NCBI GenBank assembly: GCA_947258755.1
Contig: CAMYJO010000035.1
Location: forward strand, 15,072-49,295
DNA: 34,224 bases
Reading direction: 5' to 3'
DNA from: an uncultured Gammaproteobacteria bacterium
Lineage (GTDB): Bacteria; Pseudomonadota; Gammaproteobacteria; JAADHQ01
Numbering within the stretch: the first letter of the stretch is position 1; each line of letters opens with the position of its first letter. Shown here piece after piece: positions 7,362 through 24,492 of this stretch. Made by a program: the position numbers and the translations under genes. Below the pieces are notes generated by a model that was not told where the DNA came from, searched no databases, and was given only the letters and a program-made list of their open reading frames with translations.

Positions 7362-7486
7362 GCCCTTAATTTAAATTTTGCTACTGGTAATTAACAAATA
7401 TTCTGGTATCCTATCCGCTTCGTTTTCAGGGGATCTACGCACTGAAATCGAGCATACAGAGAGTAGACAGGCGCAGCAGAAAATAG

Positions 7487-7515
7487 TTGCACTAATATCT
7501 CTAACCGTATGATAT
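7487..7515 (+). promoter_or_regulatory. Candidate promoter of tRNA-Ser
   Basis: TTGCAC at 7487-7492 could be the -35 box, with TGATAT at 7510-7515 (17-base spacer) or TATGAT at 7508-7513 (15-base spacer) as the -10. The predicted RNA start near 7521 lies about 14 bases before the mature tRNA. It is a weak consensus, supported mainly by position. Confidence 0.35.
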
Positions 7516-7534
7516 TAAAGAGTAATAGTTTTCT

Positions 7535-7625
7535 GGAGGGCTGGCAGAGCGGTTGAATGCACTGGTCTTGAAAACCAGCGTGGGTTTGTAGCCCACCGTG
7601 AGTTCGAATCTCACGCCCTCCGCCA
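7535..7625 (+). tRNA. tRNA-Ser (UGA)
   Basis: The cloverleaf is complete: acceptor stem GGAGGGC/GCCCTCC, anticodon arm CTGGT-CTTGAAA-ACCAG with anticodon TGA, a long variable arm (CGTGGGTTTGTAGCCCACC) typical of class II serine tRNAs, and T-arm GTGAG-TTCGAAT-CTCAC. The discriminator base is G and the CCA end is encoded. It reads UCA and other UCN serine codons. Confidence 0.97.
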
Positions 7626-7633
7626 AACAAAGT

Positions 7634-7664
7634 AAAGGCCTTCCAATTTGGAAGGCCTTTTTTA
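7634..7664 (+). terminator. Rho-independent terminator of tRNA-Ser
   Basis: A 12-bp stem (AAAGGCCTTCCA paired with TGGAAGGCCTTT) with a three-base loop ATT is followed by Ts to 7663. It begins nine bases after the tRNA CCA end. Confidence 0.9.
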
Positions 7665-8071
7665 TTATGGGGGCTTGAAGTTGGGGTCGTTCCCGCACGT
7701 CCTGTGCTCCTCCACGATATAAGCACATCCTTGTGCAAAGACTCACGGTTATATAGGGTCGGTGACAAATAGTAATACGAGTGATTATCAATTTTCATCG
7801 ACTCCTACAATAACCCCTTTTTTTAGTGTGCAAAAGGGCCGCGAAGCTTTGATTAAATCTCACGCTCTTTTTCTTACGTTTATCTATATAGGCTAACTAA
7901 TTTATTTTTATGGTGTTTTTTTCGTTCCGAAGGGATGGAAGAACTAGCTAAATATGTGAAGTTTGGTGTAATGATGCCGTTATATAAGTATTAGTTATTT
8001 GCATAGCGACCTGATCAAAATAAATACCATGAATTATTTAATGATGCCCTTCTAGTGATGAGCGAAATATT
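7665..8071. other. Intergenic region before the diguanylate cyclase
   Basis: No gene is supported in these 407 bases. The left part is mixed sequence without repeats that I can detect. From about 7800 it becomes strongly AT-rich with T-tracts, as expected of a promoter region for the following signalling gene. No clear -10/-35 pair stands out. Confidence 0.4.
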
Positions 8072-9388
8072 TTGCAACAGACGACTTTAACAACGCCATT
8101 TTTCAGTTTTGGAATTCGCCAAAAACTGTCTTTGATTTTGCTCGTTGTTTTATTGACTGCATTGACGGTGAGTGGGTGGATGGCATTAGAGCAAGAAAAA
8201 GTGAATACCTTGCAAGAGATCAATCAACGAGGATCTGACATCAGTCGATTTGTCGCTAAATCGCTCAGCTATAGTGTGGTGGGGTATGACTACCATACGA
8301 TTCAGTTACTGGTTGATGAAATAACACTGTCAGAAGATATCAGTTATGCCAGGGTAACCAATCAAAAGGGAAGCCTGATGGCCGAGTCAGGAGTGAAGGA
8401 GACAGATTTTGCATCTACCCAGGTATTGTTCACCGAGGATATAAAGCTGAATTCCGAGGTTGTAGGAAAACTGGAGCTAGGTCTGAGTACGGCTAAAACC
8501 ATTAAAAACCTGGAAGAGAAAAAATACACTGTCTTGCAGCGTGAAGTGTTAATCGTTTTCCTGATTGCCTTGGGAGAATTACTTGCATTGTCTTTTTTTA
8601 TTATTCGCCCTGTACGGATGATGTCGAAAACATTGGTTGCAGGAGTTGATGAAAATGGTCACATAGTCAATAAAATCCCTATTGTATCACGAGATGAATT
8701 TGGTCAGTTGGCTGAAAGCTTTAATATTTTGAGCGATCGTTTGAATGATGTAAATTTAAAGTTGCAATCGAAAATTGAGTTGGCAGACAAGCAGCTTGTA
8801 GCAACTAATCAGCAATTACGTATTCAGTCTGAAGAGTTGAAAGTGATCAATGATAATTTCAAAAAATTATCTAACACTGACGATTTAACGGGCTTGTGTA
8901 ATCGTCGGCATTTTGAAGAACTAATGTACAATGAATTGGAAACAGCACGTCGGCATGGTGATTCTAATAGCGTGATTATTTTCGATATTGATTATTTCAA
9001 GAATGTCAACGATACCTATGGCCATCCCTGTGGAGATAGTGTTTTGCGTGATGTCTCAACACTGTTAAAGGAACGCATGCGTAAGACTGATTTCCTTTGT
9101 CGTCTCGGAGGCGAGGAATTTGTTGTTTTGTGCAAGCGAGCAGAAAAAGAGTCAGCGATGAAGATTGCAGAAGATATGCGTAAAACCGTTGAAGGTACCC
9201 AGTTCACATTTGCTGAGAGTGTGATCAATATTACTATCAGCCTCGGCGTGGCAACCATGGGCCCAGATGATAAATTCAATGATCCGGATTTAGCTTACCG
9301 GCAGGCGGATCAGGCGGTGTATTTCAGCAAGAAGAATGGTCGGAATTGCAGTACTCATTTTAATGATATAAAAAGCGACATAAGATAA
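8072..9388 (+). CDS. Membrane diguanylate cyclase with periplasmic sensor, HAMP and GGDEF
   Basis: The 438-residue protein makes cyclic di-GMP from two GTP. Helix 1 spans about 17-36, then a periplasmic sensor region of about 120 residues resembling CHASE8 domains (SDISRFVAKSLSYSVVGYD), helix 2 about 159-178, HAMP 179-228, a coiled coil to about 266, and GGDEF 268-430. The active-site motif GGEEF is at 346-350 and the product-inhibition I-site RKTD at 337-340, correctly five residues before it, so the enzyme should be active and feedback-regulated. The start is TTG 8072: a stop codon at 8042 closes the frame upstream and the next ATG falls after helix 1. It precedes the PhnD-like gene by 11 bases, suggesting an operon in which the binding protein tunes the sensor. 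Confidence 0.9.
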   Translation: MQQTTLTTPFFSFGIRQKLSLILLVVLLTALTVSGWMALEQEKVNTLQEINQRGSDISRFVAKSLSYSVVGYDYHTIQLLVDEITLSEDISYARVTNQKGSLMAESGVKETDFASTQVLFTEDIKLNSEVVGKLELGLSTAKTIKNLEEKKYTVLQREVLIVFLIALGELLALSFFIIRPVRMMSKTLVAGVDENGHIVNKIPIVSRDEFGQLAESFNILSDRLNDVNLKLQSKIELADKQLVATNQQLRIQSEELKVINDNFKKLSNTDDLTGLCNRRHFEELMYNELETARRHGDSNSVIIFDIDYFKNVNDTYGHPCGDSVLRDVSTLLKERMRKTDFLCRLGGEEFVVLCKRAEKESAMKIAEDMRKTVEGTQFTFAESVINITISLGVATMGPDDKFNDPDLAYRQADQAVYFSKKNGRNCSTHFNDIKSDIR

Positions 9389-13130: not shown

Positions 13131-14408
13131 GTGCAGAAAAGCGATCAAAAAACAGACCCGGAACAATACTATGAACTGCTCAGGAAAAGCAGGTTCATGG
13201 AAAACGCTCCTGAGCAGTTGATTCGCCAGGCGGCTACCATTGGTATCGAGATATCACTACCCTCTGGTCAAACGCTTTTTCACAAGGGTGATTTCGGCGA
13301 CTCGATGTATGTCATCCTCAATGGCCGAATTCGCGTTCACGACGGGGACTTGTCACTCAACATACTGTCACCCGGCCATGTCATAGGTGAAATTGCATCC
13401 CTGGGATCGCTTAAAAGAACTGCATCAATCACTGCCGAGGACGATGCCACCCTGTTTGAAATCAACTGCAAAACCCTTTTCTCCACCCTGGCAAATGAGG
13501 AAGGCTTTACCAAATCAATTGTATCTATGCTTTGTAGTCGTGAGAAAAGCATGGCCACCAAGGTCACCGACAGGTCCATGCGAGTTCGTACACTGGAAAG
13601 GGAGCTGGAAATCGGCCGTGAAATACAGTCACACTTTCTGCCTGATACACTACCCGTCATTCCGGACTGGAACCTGTCTGCCTATTTTCATGCCGCGCAT
13701 GAAGTTGCCGGGGATTTTTATGACGCATTTGAAATAAAGTCTATTAACCGCATAGGACTGGTGGTTGGCGATGTCTGCGACAAGGGTGTAGGTGCGGCCC
13801 TGTTTATGACTTTATTCAGAAGCCTGATCAGGGCCACTGCGCTTTCAATGGATTTCAATAACTGGTCGACTGCCCCGGATGCATCATATGGTCGCAGGCG
13901 TGAAAACCAAGTCCCACGAAACAGGGTAGATGAATGTCTACTTGACAGTATCCAGAGCACGAACAATTACATCGCCCAGACCCATGGCGGCACCAGCATG
14001 TTTGCATCGGTATTTTTTGCAATAATCGATCCGTATACCGGAAACCTGAGCTATATCAATGCCGGTCACGAGGAACCCGTTATTTTCGGCAAACAGCAAA
14101 TCAAACAACGACTGGAAACAACTGGACCCGTTGTCGGTATTTTCCCGGGTGCCAGGCATGAAATAGCCTCAACCAAACTTGATCATGGAGACAGTCTACT
14201 GATATTTACTGATGGCATCACAGAAGCCGTTTCAGAAAGTGGTGAACAGTACTCTGAATCACGCCTGATGGATACACTGGCAAGTTACTGCGGCACTGCC
14301 GACAGCTTGTTAGACAACATAATACAATCACTGAACAATTTCACAAAAGGAGCCAGGCAGTTCGATGACAATACTATTTTAGCAATCCATAGAAACCTTA
14401 CACATTAA
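13131..14408 (+). CDS. Cyclic nucleotide-binding / PP2C (SpoIIE-type) serine phosphatase
   Basis: The 425-residue cytoplasmic protein begins at GTG 13131. Residues 22-125 are a CNB domain whose phosphate-binding cassette (GEIASLGSLKRTAS, 86-99) keeps the glutamate and the arginine (R96) that bind the cyclic phosphate, so real cAMP or cGMP binding is plausible. A linker helix (RTLERELEIGREIQSHFLP) leads into the SpoIIE phosphatase domain, about 180-420, with metal-binding D195 (GDFYD), D214 and D217 (GDVCDKG), D361 (FTDG) and D412/D413 (FDDN). Enzymes of this type dephosphorylate STAS antagonists to trigger partner switching. The STAS gene follows 33 bases later and the kinase gene after that, so the three form one module. 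The domain fusion implies that a cyclic nucleotide controls the switch. Confidence 0.93.
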   Translation: MQKSDQKTDPEQYYELLRKSRFMENAPEQLIRQAATIGIEISLPSGQTLFHKGDFGDSMYVILNGRIRVHDGDLSLNILSPGHVIGEIASLGSLKRTASITAEDDATLFEINCKTLFSTLANEEGFTKSIVSMLCSREKSMATKVTDRSMRVRTLERELEIGREIQSHFLPDTLPVIPDWNLSAYFHAAHEVAGDFYDAFEIKSINRIGLVVGDVCDKGVGAALFMTLFRSLIRATALSMDFNNWSTAPDASYGRRRENQVPRNRVDECLLDSIQSTNNYIAQTHGGTSMFASVFFAIIDPYTGNLSYINAGHEEPVIFGKQQIKQRLETTGPVVGIFPGARHEIASTKLDHGDSLLIFTDGITEAVSESGEQYSESRLMDTLASYCGTADSLLDNIIQSLNNFTKGARQFDDNTILAIHRNLTH

Positions 14409-14441
14409 TCCTGATGTTAAATATGAAGCAAGGATAATATT

Positions 14442-14807
14442 ATGAGCGATACACTACACATAGCAATCTCAAATGAAGCAGCATCTGTCACGGTTTTGCA
14501 ACTGACCGGTCCTCTTGATGCCAACACGCAAAAAGATCTGGAAGAAAAAGCTAACGAAGTTATCGACGGCGGTGCAAAGCACATTGTTCTGGAAATGAGT
14601 AAGGTGTCATACATGGGTAGTGCGGGCTTGAGGGCCATTCACGCTATCACAAAAAAACTGGGTGACGATAGCGATAATGCAATCAAGTCTGATGACCTGA
14701 AAATAGCCAGCCCATCAGATGAAGTCAGAAAAATATTCAAGACTCTTGGTTTTGACACCTACATCGACATACTGGACGATCTGGATAGTGCGATTGCATC
14801 TTTTTGA
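14442..14807 (+). CDS. STAS-domain anti-sigma factor antagonist (RsbV/SpoIIAA-like)
   Basis: This 121-residue protein is a single STAS domain. The conserved motif at the start of helix 2 reads VSYMGSAGLRAI, and S60 stands where antagonists are phosphorylated by their cognate kinase. The unphosphorylated form would bind the HATPase protein and release its target. The C-terminal half ends with KTLGFDTYIDILDDLDSAIASF-like residues typical of the fold. An AAGGA box (14430-14434) lies seven bases before ATG 14442. It lies between its presumed phosphatase (13131) and kinase (14838) genes. Confidence 0.92.
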   Translation: MSDTLHIAISNEAASVTVLQLTGPLDANTQKDLEEKANEVIDGGAKHIVLEMSKVSYMGSAGLRAIHAITKKLGDDSDNAIKSDDLKIASPSDEVRKIFKTLGFDTYIDILDDLDSAIASF

Positions 14808-14837
14808 TGCACATGCCTGTCGGCAGTTACACAACAC

Positions 14838-15251
14838 ATGTTGTTAAAAGTCAGGGCAGGACTGTCTGAGCTGGAAAAAATAAGGGAATTCGTAGCAAGT
14901 GCAGCAAACACTATGGCTGTCGATGAAAAACTTGTTGGTGACCTGAAGTTGGTCGTGGATGAAGCGGCCACCAATATCATCAACCATGGCTATCAGGGCA
15001 AACCCGGTGACATAGAAATTGAAATGAGGGCCAGTGGGGCCGACCTGATCATTACATTGCGCGACCACGCCCCTGTTTTTGATCCGACCTCACACCAGGT
15101 GCCTCTCCCCAAATCACCCGCCGAGGAAGAAAAACCCGGCGGCTTTGGTTTGCACCTGATCCGGAACATTGCTGATGAGATGAAACACAGGGTTTCAATC
15201 GATGGAGGCAATGAACTTTCGCTGATAAAATATAATGCGATAACACTTTAG
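14838..15251 (+). CDS. HATPase_c anti-sigma factor-type serine kinase (RsbW-like)
   Basis: The 137-residue protein is a lone GHKL ATPase of the RsbW/SpoIIAB group. The N box is LKLVVDEAATNIINHGY (E42, N46), the G1-like box RDHAPVFDP (D76) and the G2 box PGGFGLHLI (102-109). Such proteins phosphorylate a STAS antagonist and sequester a sigma factor or another effector. The G1 box lacks its usual glycine (DHAP rather than DxG), an oddity that may affect nucleotide binding. Start ATG 14838 is 30 bases after the STAS stop; no strong Shine-Dalgarno is seen. No sigma factor gene follows, so the effector is unknown. Confidence 0.9.
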   Translation: MLLKVRAGLSELEKIREFVASAANTMAVDEKLVGDLKLVVDEAATNIINHGYQGKPGDIEIEMRASGADLIITLRDHAPVFDPTSHQVPLPKSPAEEEKPGGFGLHLIRNIADEMKHRVSIDGGNELSLIKYNAITL

Positions 15252-16838: not shown

Positions 16839-18113
16839 ATGACGGCGCATGAACTGACAACCGATAATGACAAGTCCTGTGAACAACTCGAGCTGTTGAC
16901 CAAGGTATTGCAGGAATTTTCAACCTCACTGGATATCGATATTACGTTGCAGCATGTCACCAACCTGGTTAAACAGTACCTCGATGCAGAAGGCGTATCA
17001 CTATTCCTGTTGGAGAATGACGACAAGGAACTGGTGTGCCGGGTATGTGCATCGATCCCCGATATCAGTGGCGTCCGCCTCGGTGCCGAAGAGGGCATTG
17101 TTGGGCGTGCCTTGCGTGAAAAAAAGACCCAGATCGTTCGTGATGTCAACAAGGACCCCGATTTCTACAAGGGTGTGGATGAACGCAGTGGCATCAAGAC
17201 ACGATCAATCCTGTGTGCACCATTGATGCTGAAAGACCAGCGCATCGGTGCACTGGAGGCAATCAATAAAAATTCTGATGACGGCCTGTTCGAAGAAGCT
17301 GATCGCAACCTGCTGACGATTCTGGCCAATACCTCGGCGATGGCCATTCATAACTCGCGCATGGCAGAGGAACTGGTATTCCAGGAGCGCACACGCAGGG
17401 AGCTGGAGCTGGCAAGGGAAATCCAGGCTGCCTTGCTGCCTGATCACTGTGAGGACTATCCGGTATACGGAATCAACATGCCGGCGCGCATGGTCTCTGG
17501 TGACTTTTATGACCACTTCGAACTGGATGATGGACGAATCTGTTTCGGGCTGGGTGATGTATCCGGCAAGGGGATCAATGCATCATTACTGATGGCCAAG
17601 ACGGCTTCGATTTTCAGGTGCCTCGGTAAACGCATCCAGTCGCCATCCGAGCTGCTGTCCATACTCAACAACGAACTGCATGCTAATGCCACGCGCGGCA
17701 TGTTTGTAACCATGGTGTCCGGTATTTACGACCCGGTCGGGCAAACGCTGACGATGGTCAACGCCGGGCACCATCCGCCACTGCTGCGCAAGGCCAATGG
17801 CGAGATCGAGGCATATGAGATCGCATCACCGCCACTGGGCATCCTGCCGGATATCAGTTTCGAGGAATACCCGATTTCGATCGATAGCGGCGACCTGTAC
17901 CTGTTTACCGATGGCTTGACCGAGTGTTGGCTCCAACGCGGACAGCAGCTCGGTGTCGATGGCGTCATCGACATGATTATGCGCTTCTCCGATATCAAGG
18001 CCACCGACCGCCTGCAGGCCATCGTGCAAAGTGTCACGCGCTGGAAACGCGAACAAACTGGCTACCTCTTTGACGATATCACCATGATGCTGATCTCAGC
18101 CAGCAAAAGATAA
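16839..18113 (+). CDS. GAF-domain PP2C (SpoIIE-type) serine phosphatase
   Basis: The 424-residue cytoplasmic protein has a GAF sensor domain (about 16-165; VSLFLLENDDKELVCRVCAS, GIVGRALREKKTQIVRD, SILCAPLM), a helical linker (RTRRELELAREIQAALLPD) and a SpoIIE phosphatase domain (about 195-422). Metal-binding aspartates lie in GDFYD (211-215), GDVSGKG (229-235), FTDG (346-349) and FDDIT (411-415), so it should be active. A GAF ligand or redox signal would control dephosphorylation of a STAS protein. The nearest candidate substrate is the STAS protein at 14442. It is separated from that module by 1.6 kb of element debris. It ends 54 bases from the convergent GFA gene. Confidence 0.93.
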   Translation: MTAHELTTDNDKSCEQLELLTKVLQEFSTSLDIDITLQHVTNLVKQYLDAEGVSLFLLENDDKELVCRVCASIPDISGVRLGAEEGIVGRALREKKTQIVRDVNKDPDFYKGVDERSGIKTRSILCAPLMLKDQRIGALEAINKNSDDGLFEEADRNLLTILANTSAMAIHNSRMAEELVFQERTRRELELAREIQAALLPDHCEDYPVYGINMPARMVSGDFYDHFELDDGRICFGLGDVSGKGINASLLMAKTASIFRCLGKRIQSPSELLSILNNELHANATRGMFVTMVSGIYDPVGQTLTMVNAGHHPPLLRKANGEIEAYEIASPPLGILPDISFEEYPISIDSGDLYLFTDGLTECWLQRGQQLGVDGVIDMIMRFSDIKATDRLQAIVQSVTRWKREQTGYLFDDITMMLISASKR

Positions 18114-20615: not shown

Positions 20616-22466
20616 CTAAAAGGTCAGGAAACCGATTTCCTGGTCTGCCATTCGCAATTTCTTTGATAGGTCCAACGCAATAGCGGACAGTAATTTCAGC
20701 TGCAAGACCTGTATATCGCGCTCATCTTTATGTTCTGCAAATTTTTCATAGTCCAGCATCAGGCACTTGCTGTCGGTGATCGCAACGACGTCGGCAGAGC
20801 GTTTTCTTTGTTCGAGCATGGCCTGTTCACCGAATGAACCGCCGGCGCAGATCGTCGCGATATGCTGATGACGATCATGGTTCAGCGGCAGATAAATGCC
20901 GATTTCGCCAGCGATGAGAAAATACAGGCTGCTGTCCTGATCGCCGGCATGACAGACATATTCGCCTGCTGGAAAACTGCGTTCAACTAGGAAGGTAGTG
21001 AGTTGGCCCAGTTCATCAGGTGTCAGGCTTTCACATAAGGGTTGTTTTTCCAGTGGCACCGGTTCAGTCAGGAACGGTGAGATTCCGGCATCCTCAAGCA
21101 AGATATTCTCATAATGGACCAGTGCCTGCTCCAGATCATCGATCGCAAATAATTGTTTGACCTTTTCTTTGCCAATGATTTGCTTGATATATTTTGTCAG
21201 TCCGCTTTTATCTGCCGTACCTGTCAATATCAAGGTTTTGTTCTGTGATTGTAATAACTCATCCAGCCAGATAATCAATTGCGCGGCCGCCTTGTCACAG
21301 GAAGAAGCGCGGCGTAAATCGATAACAATATGCCTGGCGTCCGTGGTATGTGTGCATACGTATGAGGTCAGGATTTCAGAGGTGGTAAACATCAACTCGC
21401 CGCTTGCTTCAATGATGGCGACCTTGTGTCCGTCTCGGGAAAGAACCTCCAGCATCTCTGTATTTCTGGCTTTTTTCGAGCGCATTTGTGTCAGGTTGTA
21501 AGCGGTGCGTATGACATCGACAGAGCTGTAGCGTTCATTGGAAAAAGCATGCAGGTTCAGGTCCTGAGACAAGGCACGACAGACGGCAATACCGCGTGCG
21601 CTGTTACCCTTGGCGTCCAGGCGGGGTGAAAATACCGCAATACCCAGCCTGTCTGGCAGGACCGCGATGATGCCGCCACCAACACCGCTTTTGGCGGGCA
21701 GGCCGATCTGATACAGCCATTCACCGGAACCGTCGTACATCCCACAGGTTGCCATGGCGCTCAGCACCCTCGGTACGTGTTCAGACGACAGGGCCCTGAC
21801 TCCTGTCACCGGGTTGACCCCCTCGTTGGCCAACGTGGCGGCCATATTGGCCAGATCACGACAGGTCACATTGATCGAGCATTGTTGGAAGTAGACATCC
21901 AGGACTTCATCAATGTCCTGGTCCAGTATATTGGCATTGCGCAGCATATGGCCTATGGCGCGATTGCGATGACCGGTCGATTTCTCCGAACGAAAAACAT
22001 CATAGTCGATGATGAGACCATGTCCGGCATATTTGCTATAAACATCGAGAATGCGCTGTATTTTTTCAGCGGGAGTATCACCGCTGACAAGGGCAGACGC
22101 GGCAATCGCACCTGCATTGATCATCGGATTACGAGGTCGCCCCGTCGCATGCTCAAGGCTGATGCGGTTGAATGCCTCGCCCGAAGGCTCAACATTGATT
22201 TTCGAGAATATATCCTCTACACCGTTATCCTCGAGAGCAATGCCATAGGTCAACGGTTTGGAGATGGATTGGATCGTAAATGGCAGGCGTGTGTCACCGG
22301 TCTGATAGACATGACCGTCGACAGTCACAATCGCAATACCGAATGCATCTGCATCGACTTTGGTTAATTCCGGAATGTAGTCGGCAACCTCACCTTCCTG
22401 GAGACTTGCATACGTTTGGTGCAAATCATCAAGGTACTTATGCAAAAATGGTGCATACTCGACCAT
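20616..22466 (-). CDS. glsA: Glutaminase-STAS-cyclic nucleotide-binding domain fusion
   Basis: The 616-residue protein has three parts. Residues 1-310 are a serine-dependent glutaminase that converts glutamine to glutamate and ammonia: S67-x-x-K70 (QSISKPLTYG), N113/N117 (PRNPMINAGA) and GVGGGIIAVLPDRLGIAVFS are in place. About 335-440 is a STAS domain, but where the phospho-acceptor serine is expected (D-S-S-G) the sequence reads CDKAAAQL, so it is probably not phosphorylated. About 470-600 is a CNB domain with its glutamate and arginine kept (FGEQAMLEQRKRSADV), so cyclic-nucleotide binding is plausible. Ordinary bacterial glutaminases are about 310 residues. AAGGA lies nine bases before ATG 22466. 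Two CNB-only genes lie upstream on the same strand. Confidence 0.93.
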   Translation of the reverse strand: MVEYAPFLHKYLDDLHQTYASLQEGEVADYIPELTKVDADAFGIAIVTVDGHVYQTGDTRLPFTIQSISKPLTYGIALEDNGVEDIFSKINVEPSGEAFNRISLEHATGRPRNPMINAGAIAASALVSGDTPAEKIQRILDVYSKYAGHGLIIDYDVFRSEKSTGHRNRAIGHMLRNANILDQDIDEVLDVYFQQCSINVTCRDLANMAATLANEGVNPVTGVRALSSEHVPRVLSAMATCGMYDGSGEWLYQIGLPAKSGVGGGIIAVLPDRLGIAVFSPRLDAKGNSARGIAVCRALSQDLNLHAFSNERYSSVDVIRTAYNLTQMRSKKARNTEMLEVLSRDGHKVAIIEASGELMFTTSEILTSYVCTHTTDARHIVIDLRRASSCDKAAAQLIIWLDELLQSQNKTLILTGTADKSGLTKYIKQIIGKEKVKQLFAIDDLEQALVHYENILLEDAGISPFLTEPVPLEKQPLCESLTPDELGQLTTFLVERSFPAGEYVCHAGDQDSSLYFLIAGEIGIYLPLNHDRHQHIATICAGGSFGEQAMLEQRKRSADVVAITDSKCLMLDYEKFAEHKDERDIQVLQLKLLSAIALDLSKKLRMADQEIGFLTF

Positions 22467-22713: not shown

Positions 22714-23286
22714 CTATTCAGGTGTGATGCGGCGCTCGTCGTTTTGTCTTCTATCGATTCCCTGACGCCGGTCATGGCGGCGATACTGCCATAGCATACT
22801 TTCCAGATTTTCAGTCGTGACGTTTTCGAGTTTTGAAAAGATGACGCTTTTCAGAAGCTGGATGATGTTGCGGTAATTGCGTGTCAGTTGCCTGGCAATG
22901 ATATGCTGAAAATGGTGAGCCAGTGTAGACTTGCTATCGTACAGCATGATAAATGCTGACTTGGGTAACGAGGCGGTGGTCACCTCACCATCAGCCACAT
23001 AGGAAACCAGACTTTTTTCTTTCGTGACAAAACTCAATACGCCGAACAGGTCACCCGGATACAGTGTCTCCAGAGTCTGATGTTCATCGGTGTCCAGGTC
23101 CTGGTGATACAGATTGACCTTGCCTTCAATAATCAGATGCATGTCCTTGCCGGTTTTACCCTTGTGGATAAAGACATGCCCATCCGGATGCCGTGTAACG
23201 GCCATCGCTTTTTCAAGCACTTCAAGGTCCTTGCTTGAGATGGCTGAAAAATCAGGTACGGTTTTCAAGTAACTGACAAGGTTCAT
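22714..23286 (-). CDS. CNB-fold protein with degenerate ligand pocket (second gene of pair)
   Basis: ATG 23286 is the start: GGGAGGT lies six bases upstream and the ATG overlaps the upstream stop codon as TAATG, so translation is coupled. The 190-residue product is a cyclic-nucleotide-binding fold (about 12-125, FIHKGKTGKDMHLIIEGKV) with a basic, arginine-rich tail (RRHDRRQGIDRRQNDERR). The phosphate-binding cassette reads FGVLSFVTKEKSLVS, without the canonical glutamate and arginine, so it probably does not bind cAMP or cGMP in the usual manner. No DNA-binding domain is present, so it is not a CRP-type regulator. It may act as a protein-interaction partner. Confidence 0.85.
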   Translation of the reverse strand: MNLVSYLKTVPDFSAISSKDLEVLEKAMAVTRHPDGHVFIHKGKTGKDMHLIIEGKVNLYHQDLDTDEHQTLETLYPGDLFGVLSFVTKEKSLVSYVADGEVTTASLPKSAFIMLYDSKSTLAHHFQHIIARQLTRNYRNIIQLLKSVIFSKLENVTTENLESMLWQYRRHDRRQGIDRRQNDERRITPE

Positions 23287-23840
23287 TAGTGTACCTCCCT
23301 GATTGTATGTAGTTTCTGATAGATTTTCTTGGCCCATTCGACCGGATTGAGGTCATCTTCGGGTGCCGAACCTGGCTGATCAGGCAATAATTTTTCATAT
23401 AACAATGCTTCACCATTCTGGATTCGCGAACCCAGATGTTGGGATATGATATGTAACAGGTGTCCGGTAATATTCGGATAACTTTTATCCAGTTTAAAGA
23501 ATTCATCCCTGGATAACATCAGCAAAATTGCATCTGTATCGGCTATCACCGATGCGCTGGATGTGTCTGCATCCAGCATCGATACTTCACCGGCCAGCTG
23601 ACCGGGTTTTATTGGCCCCAGAGTGATTTTTTCTTCGCCGGCCATTATGTAACTTGTGAGCGTGCCCTTGATGAGCAGGTAGAGCTTGTCATTGGGCTTG
23701 TCGTAATCCAGGATGATGCTCCCATTGTCGACTTGCACTGTCTCCATTGCATCCAGCAGATGATCGATTTCATCCTTGCTCAAACCACGGGTGATGGCTG
23801 GAAACAGTTTTTTCAGATCGCTGATATTAATTTTATCCAT
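23286..23840 (-). CDS. CNB-fold protein with degenerate ligand pocket (first gene of pair)
   Basis: ATG 23840 (MDKINISDLKKLFPAITRGL) has GGAG six bases upstream and gives 184 residues; in-frame sequence further upstream lacks a ribosome-binding site. The CNB fold covers about 20-130 (KLYLLIKGTLTSY, KPGQLAGEVSML). Its cassette GEVSMLDADTSSAS keeps the glutamate (E85) but has serine (S94) where the phosphate-binding arginine should be. The C-terminus (EWAKKIYQKLHTIREVH) is helical. It is cotranscribed and coupled by TAATG to the next CNB gene, and together they precede the glutaminase fusion on the same strand. Ligand and role are unknown. Confidence 0.85.
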   Translation of the reverse strand: MDKINISDLKKLFPAITRGLSKDEIDHLLDAMETVQVDNGSIILDYDKPNDKLYLLIKGTLTSYIMAGEEKITLGPIKPGQLAGEVSMLDADTSSASVIADTDAILLMLSRDEFFKLDKSYPNITGHLLHIISQHLGSRIQNGEALLYEKLLPDQPGSAPEDDLNPVEWAKKIYQKLHTIREVH

Positions 23841-24492
23841 AACAAACTCCGGTCTTGCTTTAGATGATTGCATAATGGGCAAAGGCAAGATATAGGTATT
23901 ATTAAGTATTACTCTATTACTCTTTGTAGTATGCATTGATTTAGTTTTGTTGTAATCAGTTAATACTCCAATAGAACAGGGCTGTTGTCTATAGATGCCA
24001 GTGAAATGTTCTCTCGGTTGATCATCCGCATCGCTGGTGACCAGGCCCATGGATATAATCTAGATTTTATATGAATCTGGATATTTTGCCCGAAAACATG
24101 GCTCAGGTATGTATCAGGATACATTGCCGTTATTCTGGCCTGGATTGATGCTCATGAGTTACTGAATTCATCAATGTAATTATGATCTTAGCCATGTATG
24201 CAAAAGCGGCGTGTAAACTGGACTGTGCTGTAAACCAATCTATATATAAGGTCTGTTATTTTTGGAGAGGCTGGGTCATGTAATCGAAAACTTTATCGCT
24301 ATTTGCTGATGGCAGGTCATCAGGAACAATTTGACAAACCGTGTCAGGCCAATTAGTTTAAGCGATAAAATACAGAGTAGGGATCAGGTCAAGCATGGTT
24401 GCTGTCTTACCTGGTGAGCAAAGACACTTTTACAGAAGTCTGCAACGGATGCCTGCTGTCCTGTAAGAATAAAAATACACAAGGGTGCTATC
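23841..24492. promoter_or_regulatory. Divergent intergenic region between CNB pair and TonB receptor
   Basis: These 652 bases contain no supported gene. A tandem 8-base repeat, TATTACTC twice (23907-23922), lies about 70 bases upstream of the CNB gene start. On the plus strand TTGACA at 24331-24336 is a perfect -35 box with TAGTTT at 24354-24359 as a poor -10 at 17 bases, a possible promoter for the receptor gene. No Fur-box-like 19-base palindrome is evident. Confidence 0.35.

Follow-up and report, generated by a model that had tools for sequence, protein, structure and literature searches.

Several described proteins resemble parts of the glutaminase reported here. The closest in overall structure is the salt-tolerant glutaminase Mglu of Micrococcus luteus K-3 (3if5, 3ih8, 3agd), a 456-aa enzyme that likewise carries a STAS-type domain C-terminal to its glutaminase domain but lacks a cyclic nucleotide-binding (CNB) domain. 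Plain glutaminases, such as YbaS of Escherichia coli (1u60) and YbgJ of Bacillus subtilis (1mki), have the same catalytic domain and active-site residues; they form a separate clade and end near residue 310. The catalytic domain of the human kidney-type glutaminase (GLS/GAC) is ~44% identical to that of our protein, whereas the regulatory parts of the human enzyme are of other kinds and include neither a STAS nor a CNB domain. CRP/CAP and other cAMP receptors show the same CNB fold and Glu/Arg cassette, joined to a DNA-binding domain instead of an enzyme. Finally, SulP/SLC26-type transporters with a STAS-CNB C-terminus carry a membrane transport domain in the place that is occupied here by the glutaminase. 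Proteins of the three-domain type are already listed in databases as plain "glutaminase," and the combination of glutaminase and STAS is covered by an NCBIfam model. Full-text searches, covering few subscription journals, found no paper on the three-domain glutaminase or on its link to cyclases.

Domain architecture and catalytic site

The window, that is, the whole stretch of 34,224 nucleotides analyzed, originates from an uncultured gammaproteobacterium. It encodes the glutaminase-STAS-CNB protein at 20616..22466 (−) as a 616-aa ORF with an ATG start, preceded by an AAGGA ribosome-binding-like stretch; this protein is the single glutaminase of its genome. The original prediction had read a fusion of three domains from this ORF, and Pfam recovered all of them, in the order glutaminase, STAS, cNMP_binding. 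No riboswitch was found upstream of the gene with Rfam, and a promoter and terminator scan gave nothing beyond chance level. The sole Rfam match was a tRNA gene located elsewhere, at 7535-7622 (+), within the ORF 7391-7798 (−); since that ORF has no Pfam match, it is probably not a gene.

A full-chain AlphaFold model built from 42 family members, a check that had been proposed together with the prediction, reached a mean pLDDT of 91, and its glutaminase and STAS parts superposed on the M. luteus enzyme 3if5. The latter also ranked first among the whole-chain structural matches, at VIA Z 47 and 37% identity for model residues 6-423. The rmsd over both domains was ~11 Å, which indicates that the glutaminase and the STAS domain are placed differently in the model and in Mglu. 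When the STAS-CNB cassette was modeled separately, the pLDDT was 94.

The glutaminase domain occupies residues 1-310 (21537..22466, −). The PF04960 match (E=1e-123) spans residues 25-308 with 412 bits against a cut-off of 27, and the score for TIGR03814 (376.6 bits) also exceeds its cut-off of 255.4. NF002134, a 429-position NCBIfam glutaminase model extending over the STAS part, gave 439 bits against a cut-off of 557; the protein is thus related to this family but is a non-member by that rule. The catalytic domain aligned with E. coli YbaS 1u60 at VIA Z 46.5. The residues S67, K70, N113, and N117, named beforehand as the catalytic set, were found at precisely those positions and were invariant in 81 sequences. 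The residues E161, N168, Y192, Y244, and K259-S260-G261-V262 were likewise retained, and E161, N168, Y192, Y244, S260, and V262 were also invariant or almost so in the same sequences. Judging from these residues, the active site is complete, and hydrolysis of glutamine is predicted.

STAS domain and the cassette common to SulP transporters

The STAS core was assigned to residues 348-417 (21216..21425, −) on the basis of Pfam, family profiles, and the model. The PF01740 match of the window protein (E=1.4e-4, 22.0 bits) lies slightly below the gathering score of 22.6; it is nevertheless genuine, because relatives have STAS matches of their own, profiles match the STAS domains of SulP proteins, and the region aligns with Mglu. 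PF01740 was matched individually by 34 of the 42 family members (E<=0.001). A profile made from the STAS region only (A4) matched, first of all, SulP STAS structures (3mgl, E 7e-8; 3oir, E 4e-7), then the C-terminus of Mglu (E 8e-5), and weakly SpoIIAA (E 0.003). In a fold search with the cassette alone, CNB matches only and no STAS structures were listed; the STAS fold therefore rests on the Mglu alignment and the sequence profiles. As judged by the latter, the STAS domain of the glutaminase groups with those of SulP transporters. The original prediction had named structural absence of the STAS and CNB parts as the outcome that would speak against it; the STAS matches of the relatives, together with a CNB match at E=2e-19, show both parts to be present.

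The resemblance to SulP proteins was not limited to the STAS domain. Profile A1, which comprised residues 340-616 of 42 glutaminases, matched over its full length, with E-values down to 1e-68, the C-termini of 720-850-aa proteins from other Proteobacteria. In Pfam, these proteins are SulP transporters with the architecture Sulfate_transp-STAS-cNMP_binding. The window protein itself had no match to PF00916 (Sulfate_transp) in Pfam, and its likeness to SulP proteins is limited to the STAS-CNB half. Between the STAS and CNB domains lies a linker helix (residues 445-459; 21090..21134, −), recognized from conservation and the model, in which Glu453 is invariant in 81/81 glutaminases and 33/33 SulP cassettes. 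In a tree of the cassettes, those of the glutaminases formed a single group, but for one long SulP branch (L177), and this group lay beside the SulP cassettes. The end-to-end A1 matches, the invariant Glu453, and the cassette tree argue that both groups bear one homologous STAS-linker-CNB cassette. In the SulP cassettes, Asp391 was present in 31/33, Thr or Ser occupied column 393, and the Arg of the CNB pocket was found in 33/33, whereas the pocket Glu was replaced by Asp in 14/33. The window's own genome encodes a SulP-STAS-CNB protein of 935 aa with a C-terminal rhodanese domain (locus L122; contig 1, 114993-116147, −), and the same contig holds a 1763-aa ORF with two CNB domains and a rhodanese domain.

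In SpoIIAA, the phosphorylated Ser sits directly after a conserved Asp. In the STAS domain of the glutaminase, D391 is followed by Lys392 (C-D-K) at the Ser position of anti-anti-sigma factors, and the SpoIIAA/RsbV-type arrangement of Ser after Asp is not present. Ser occurs at position 392 in 10/81 members of the glutaminase family and in 1/33 SulP cassettes; its absence is thus the normal state of SulP-like STAS domains. The original prediction was therefore right about the position, but the supposed loss of the phospho-Ser is nothing special to this protein and represents a trait of the family. The contrast that the prediction drew with control by phosphorylation is therefore misleading, although phosphorylation of the STAS domain was rejected as the main mode of control. 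That the STAS domain acts through protein contact, as also predicted, is a guess.

Genomic surroundings of the glutaminase gene

At 5-9 kb from the glutaminase, on the other strand, the window contains a partner-switching set of genes for a CNB-SpoIIE phosphatase, a free STAS protein, and a HATPase kinase (13131-15251, +), followed by a GAF-SpoIIE phosphatase (16839-18113). The free STAS protein (14442-14807) keeps Ser at the phospho-position (MGSAGL), as expected of an anti-anti-sigma factor. A SpoIIE-STAS-HATPase trio also adjoins the glutaminase at L034 (6796-9399, −), and at L045 (3506-5260, −) HATPase, CNB, and SpoIIE read as a single 584-aa ORF near it. These arrangements could mean that the partner-switching proteins regulate the glutaminase through its STAS domain. 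We regard this as very improbable: the domain is SulP-like and has Lys392 in place of a phospho-Ser, the association is seen in the window and in one related betaproteobacterial pair, and SpoIIE was present among 2 of the 69 neighbors scanned. Within the same scan of 69 neighbors, from which some upstream genes were omitted, no family-wide conserved neighbor was detected, none of the neighbor families having more than 4 members. The neighbors of the window gene were not shared by its close relatives L002 and L003.

Directly upstream of the glutaminase gene, two slightly overlapping tandem genes (22714-23337 and 23286-24050, −) encode CNB-only proteins with degenerate-looking pockets, one without Glu and Arg and the other without Arg. 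A GGDEF protein is encoded at 8072-9388 of the window. In two unrelated hosts, genes for CNB-patatin phospholipases adjoin the glutaminase (L017, 6907-8706, +; L081, 2478-5027, −).

CNB domain and its ligand pocket

The CNB core comprises residues 495-578 (20733..20984, −), with a PF00027 (cNMP_binding) score of 69.5 bits against a cut-off of 27.5. Its fold was nearest to cAMP receptor proteins, with VIA Z 19.7 between the cassette model and Thermus CAP (4ev0). In the AlphaFold model, a long C-terminal helix (residues 583-615) follows the core. The phosphate-binding cassette extends from E547 to R556 (20799..20828, −; within FGEQAMLEQRKRS), so that the pocket Glu and Arg that had been expected are both in place. 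Comparison of the family demonstrated that G546 is conserved in 81/81 sequences, E547 in 80/81, and R556 in 73/81. The exceptions at R556 belong to one actinobacterial group (Rhodococcus, Arthrobacter, Streptomyces), whose members (L048-L050, L052, L055, L074, L078, L080) keep the CNB fold with Phe or Gln in place of the pocket Arg. The residue after this Arg is Ser or Thr in most members, and S557 in the window protein; in CAP, which binds cAMP, Ser or Thr likewise follows the pocket Arg. CNB domains with an intact-looking pocket sometimes bind no cyclic nucleotide. Based on pocket conservation, the CNB domain of the window protein is probably a binder of cyclic nucleotides.

Distribution and phylogeny of the fused glutaminases

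A scan of genome contigs yielded 80 retained loci, all spanning the three domains at 38-54% identity. The fusion was present in at least 80 genomes of Gamma-, Beta-, Alpha-, and Deltaproteobacteria, Verrucomicrobia, and Actinobacteria. In 398 genomes from the phylum, plain glutaminases of ~305-340 aa were in the majority, and ~16 ORFs were of fusion length, of which L182 and L183 were full three-domain proteins. The prediction that plain glutaminases end near residue 310 agrees with the sequences examined.

On trees of the catalytic domain, the fused enzymes formed one clade opposite the plain glutaminases (support 100/100). Matches from a plasmid collection added glutaminases that end after the STAS linker, in Embleya (L211) and Acinetobacter (L212). 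Together with the M. luteus enzyme, both nested among the three-domain proteins; the lineage without pocket Arg (support 97/92) contained L212 and the M. luteus enzyme. A clade of three-domain proteins that excludes the CNB-less forms was rejected (AU p 0.009), a value that is indicative since the group had not been named beforehand. A glutaminase-STAS intermediate preceding the gain of the CNB domain was also rejected, the STAS-only enzymes falling inside the three-domain clade. A simple reading of the trees suggests that the fusion came first, followed by decay of the pocket in one lineage and then by loss of the CNB domain, with a separate loss in Embleya. Mglu, which branches within the Arg-less lineage, is thus a derived, CNB-less relative. 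The position of two of the three CNB-less forms inside the Arg-less lineage is as expected if ligand binding maintains the CNB domain elsewhere.

Cyclase genes near the fused glutaminases

The genomic association with cyclases was explored in 23 other host genomes with the fusion, picked before cyclases were examined. Class III cyclases were present in 22 of the 23 hosts, and 8/23 genomes had one within 5 kb of the glutaminase gene against 0.32 expected (Poisson P ~2e-9, a value that overstates independence because the linked loci are partly related). None of 18 genomes with plain glutaminases had an adjacent cyclase (Fisher 0.012 vs fused). Five further genomes with the fusion had no cyclase within 5 kb. 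Across the 80 loci, a cyclase catalytic region was found at 15, in addition to a truncated cyclase gene at L073, and at 13 loci the cyclase was within 1.5 kb of the glutaminase; independent linkage events are fewer than these counts, since members of a clade share the linkage by descent. According to record titles, the linked lineages included Beta- (L034, L042, L056, L059), Gamma- (L069), Alpha- (L058, L061, L071), and Deltaproteobacteria (L025), as well as Actinobacteria/Thermoleophilia (L064, L070). A CHASE2-Guanylate_cyc architecture was seen in 8 of 10 linked cyclases checked. At L034, L045, L069, and L006, the cyclase gene stands ahead of the glutaminase on the same strand with a gap of 79-320 bp, and some of the linked pairs look like one operon. 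In the L069 genome (G217 contig 35, 57-70 kb), a stretch of 13 kb holds the glutaminase-STAS-CNB gene, a gene of the SulP-STAS-CNB type, and two cyclase genes.

The window's own genome has one class I adenylate cyclase, 17 CNB domains, and five matches to class III cyclase domains, including one within a CHASE2-cyclase-like protein encoded on contig 16. No cyclase adjoins the glutaminase gene there, the nearest cyclase domain being a weak match ~22 kb away, and none was found adjacent to the glutaminase in the closest relatives L002 and L003.

The substrate positions of the linked cyclases bear on the nature of the ligand. Those of L058, L061, L071, L006, and L056 have Lys and Thr, as adenylate cyclases do. 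The betaproteobacterial linked cyclases mostly have Arg at both positions instead of the usual Lys and Asp/Thr, which makes the product of some of the linked enzymes unsure. The CNB domain might therefore respond to cGMP, a pyrimidine cNMP, or c-di-GMP; Foldseek also matched a cUMP-binding CNB domain (8jsk) and the c-di-GMP-responsive CLP (3iwz), and the GGDEF gene lies in the window. A response to c-di-GMP has been reported for Clp of Xanthomonas. A ligand other than cAMP nonetheless seems improbable to us in view of the Lys and Thr in the five linked cyclases named above and of the class I adenylate cyclase in the window's genome.

The same data bear on a purely structural role. The STAS-CNB half might be a docking or assembly module that sets the oligomeric state, filament formation, or location at a partner, with the nucleotide of the CNB domain absent or structural. 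STAS domains are typically protein-contact modules, Mglu-type enzymes retain the STAS domain without the CNB domain, Rhodococcus, Arthrobacter, and Streptomyces retain the CNB fold without its Arg, and the C-terminal helix in the model might dimerize. A pocket that is near-invariant outside one clade and the linkage to cyclases would be unexpected for a purely structural part, and we consider this explanation unlikely, though less so than a different ligand.

Proposed control of the glutaminase by cAMP

The original prediction that glutamine breakdown is gated by cyclic nucleotide is supported indirectly by the conservation of the pocket across phyla, by the cyclases near the gene in relatives and elsewhere in the window's genome, and by the one lineage in which the pocket decayed before the CNB domain was lost; the lack of an adjacent cyclase in the window's own genome speaks against it. 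On balance, we think it rather probable that a cyclic nucleotide, with cAMP as the likeliest candidate, controls the glutaminase allosterically through a relay from the CNB domain over the linker and the STAS domain to the catalytic domain. In this scheme, cAMP would be made by a cyclase, which in many relatives is a CHASE2-type receptor cyclase encoded beside the glutaminase, and would be bound by the C-terminal CNB domain through its Glu/Arg phosphate-binding cassette. Movement of the CNB C-helix would then be passed to the linker helix with Glu453, to the STAS domain, and finally to the catalytic domain, which is predicted to convert glutamine to glutamate and ammonia. Release from inhibition by cAMP is slightly favored as the direction of the effect, because CNB-less relatives persist and the one from M. 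luteus is a working enzyme.

A wider and more tentative proposal is that the STAS-linker-CNB unit represents a portable cAMP-response cassette, carried by glutaminases and SulP proteins and wired to CHASE2 cyclases, with the M. luteus glutaminase as a switchless relic. With such a cassette, cAMP would act directly on metabolic and transport proteins without a transcription factor. That the common cassette matches the release of ammonia and glutamate to SulP-mediated transport of anions or bicarbonate is speculation.

To our knowledge, cAMP seldom controls enzymes directly at the post-translational level in bacteria, where its known effectors are a few channels, an acetyltransferase, and transcription factors. 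If the proposed control is true, a glutaminase with a conserved cNMP module, encoded in several lineages beside its own receptor cyclase, would represent a new and clean cAMP effector, for which the actinobacterial members with Phe or Gln in place of the pocket Arg represent natural negative controls. The role of CHASE2 cyclases would then become testable, and the additional domain found in the M. luteus glutaminase, an enzyme in industrial use, would be explained as the remnant of a regulatory cassette.
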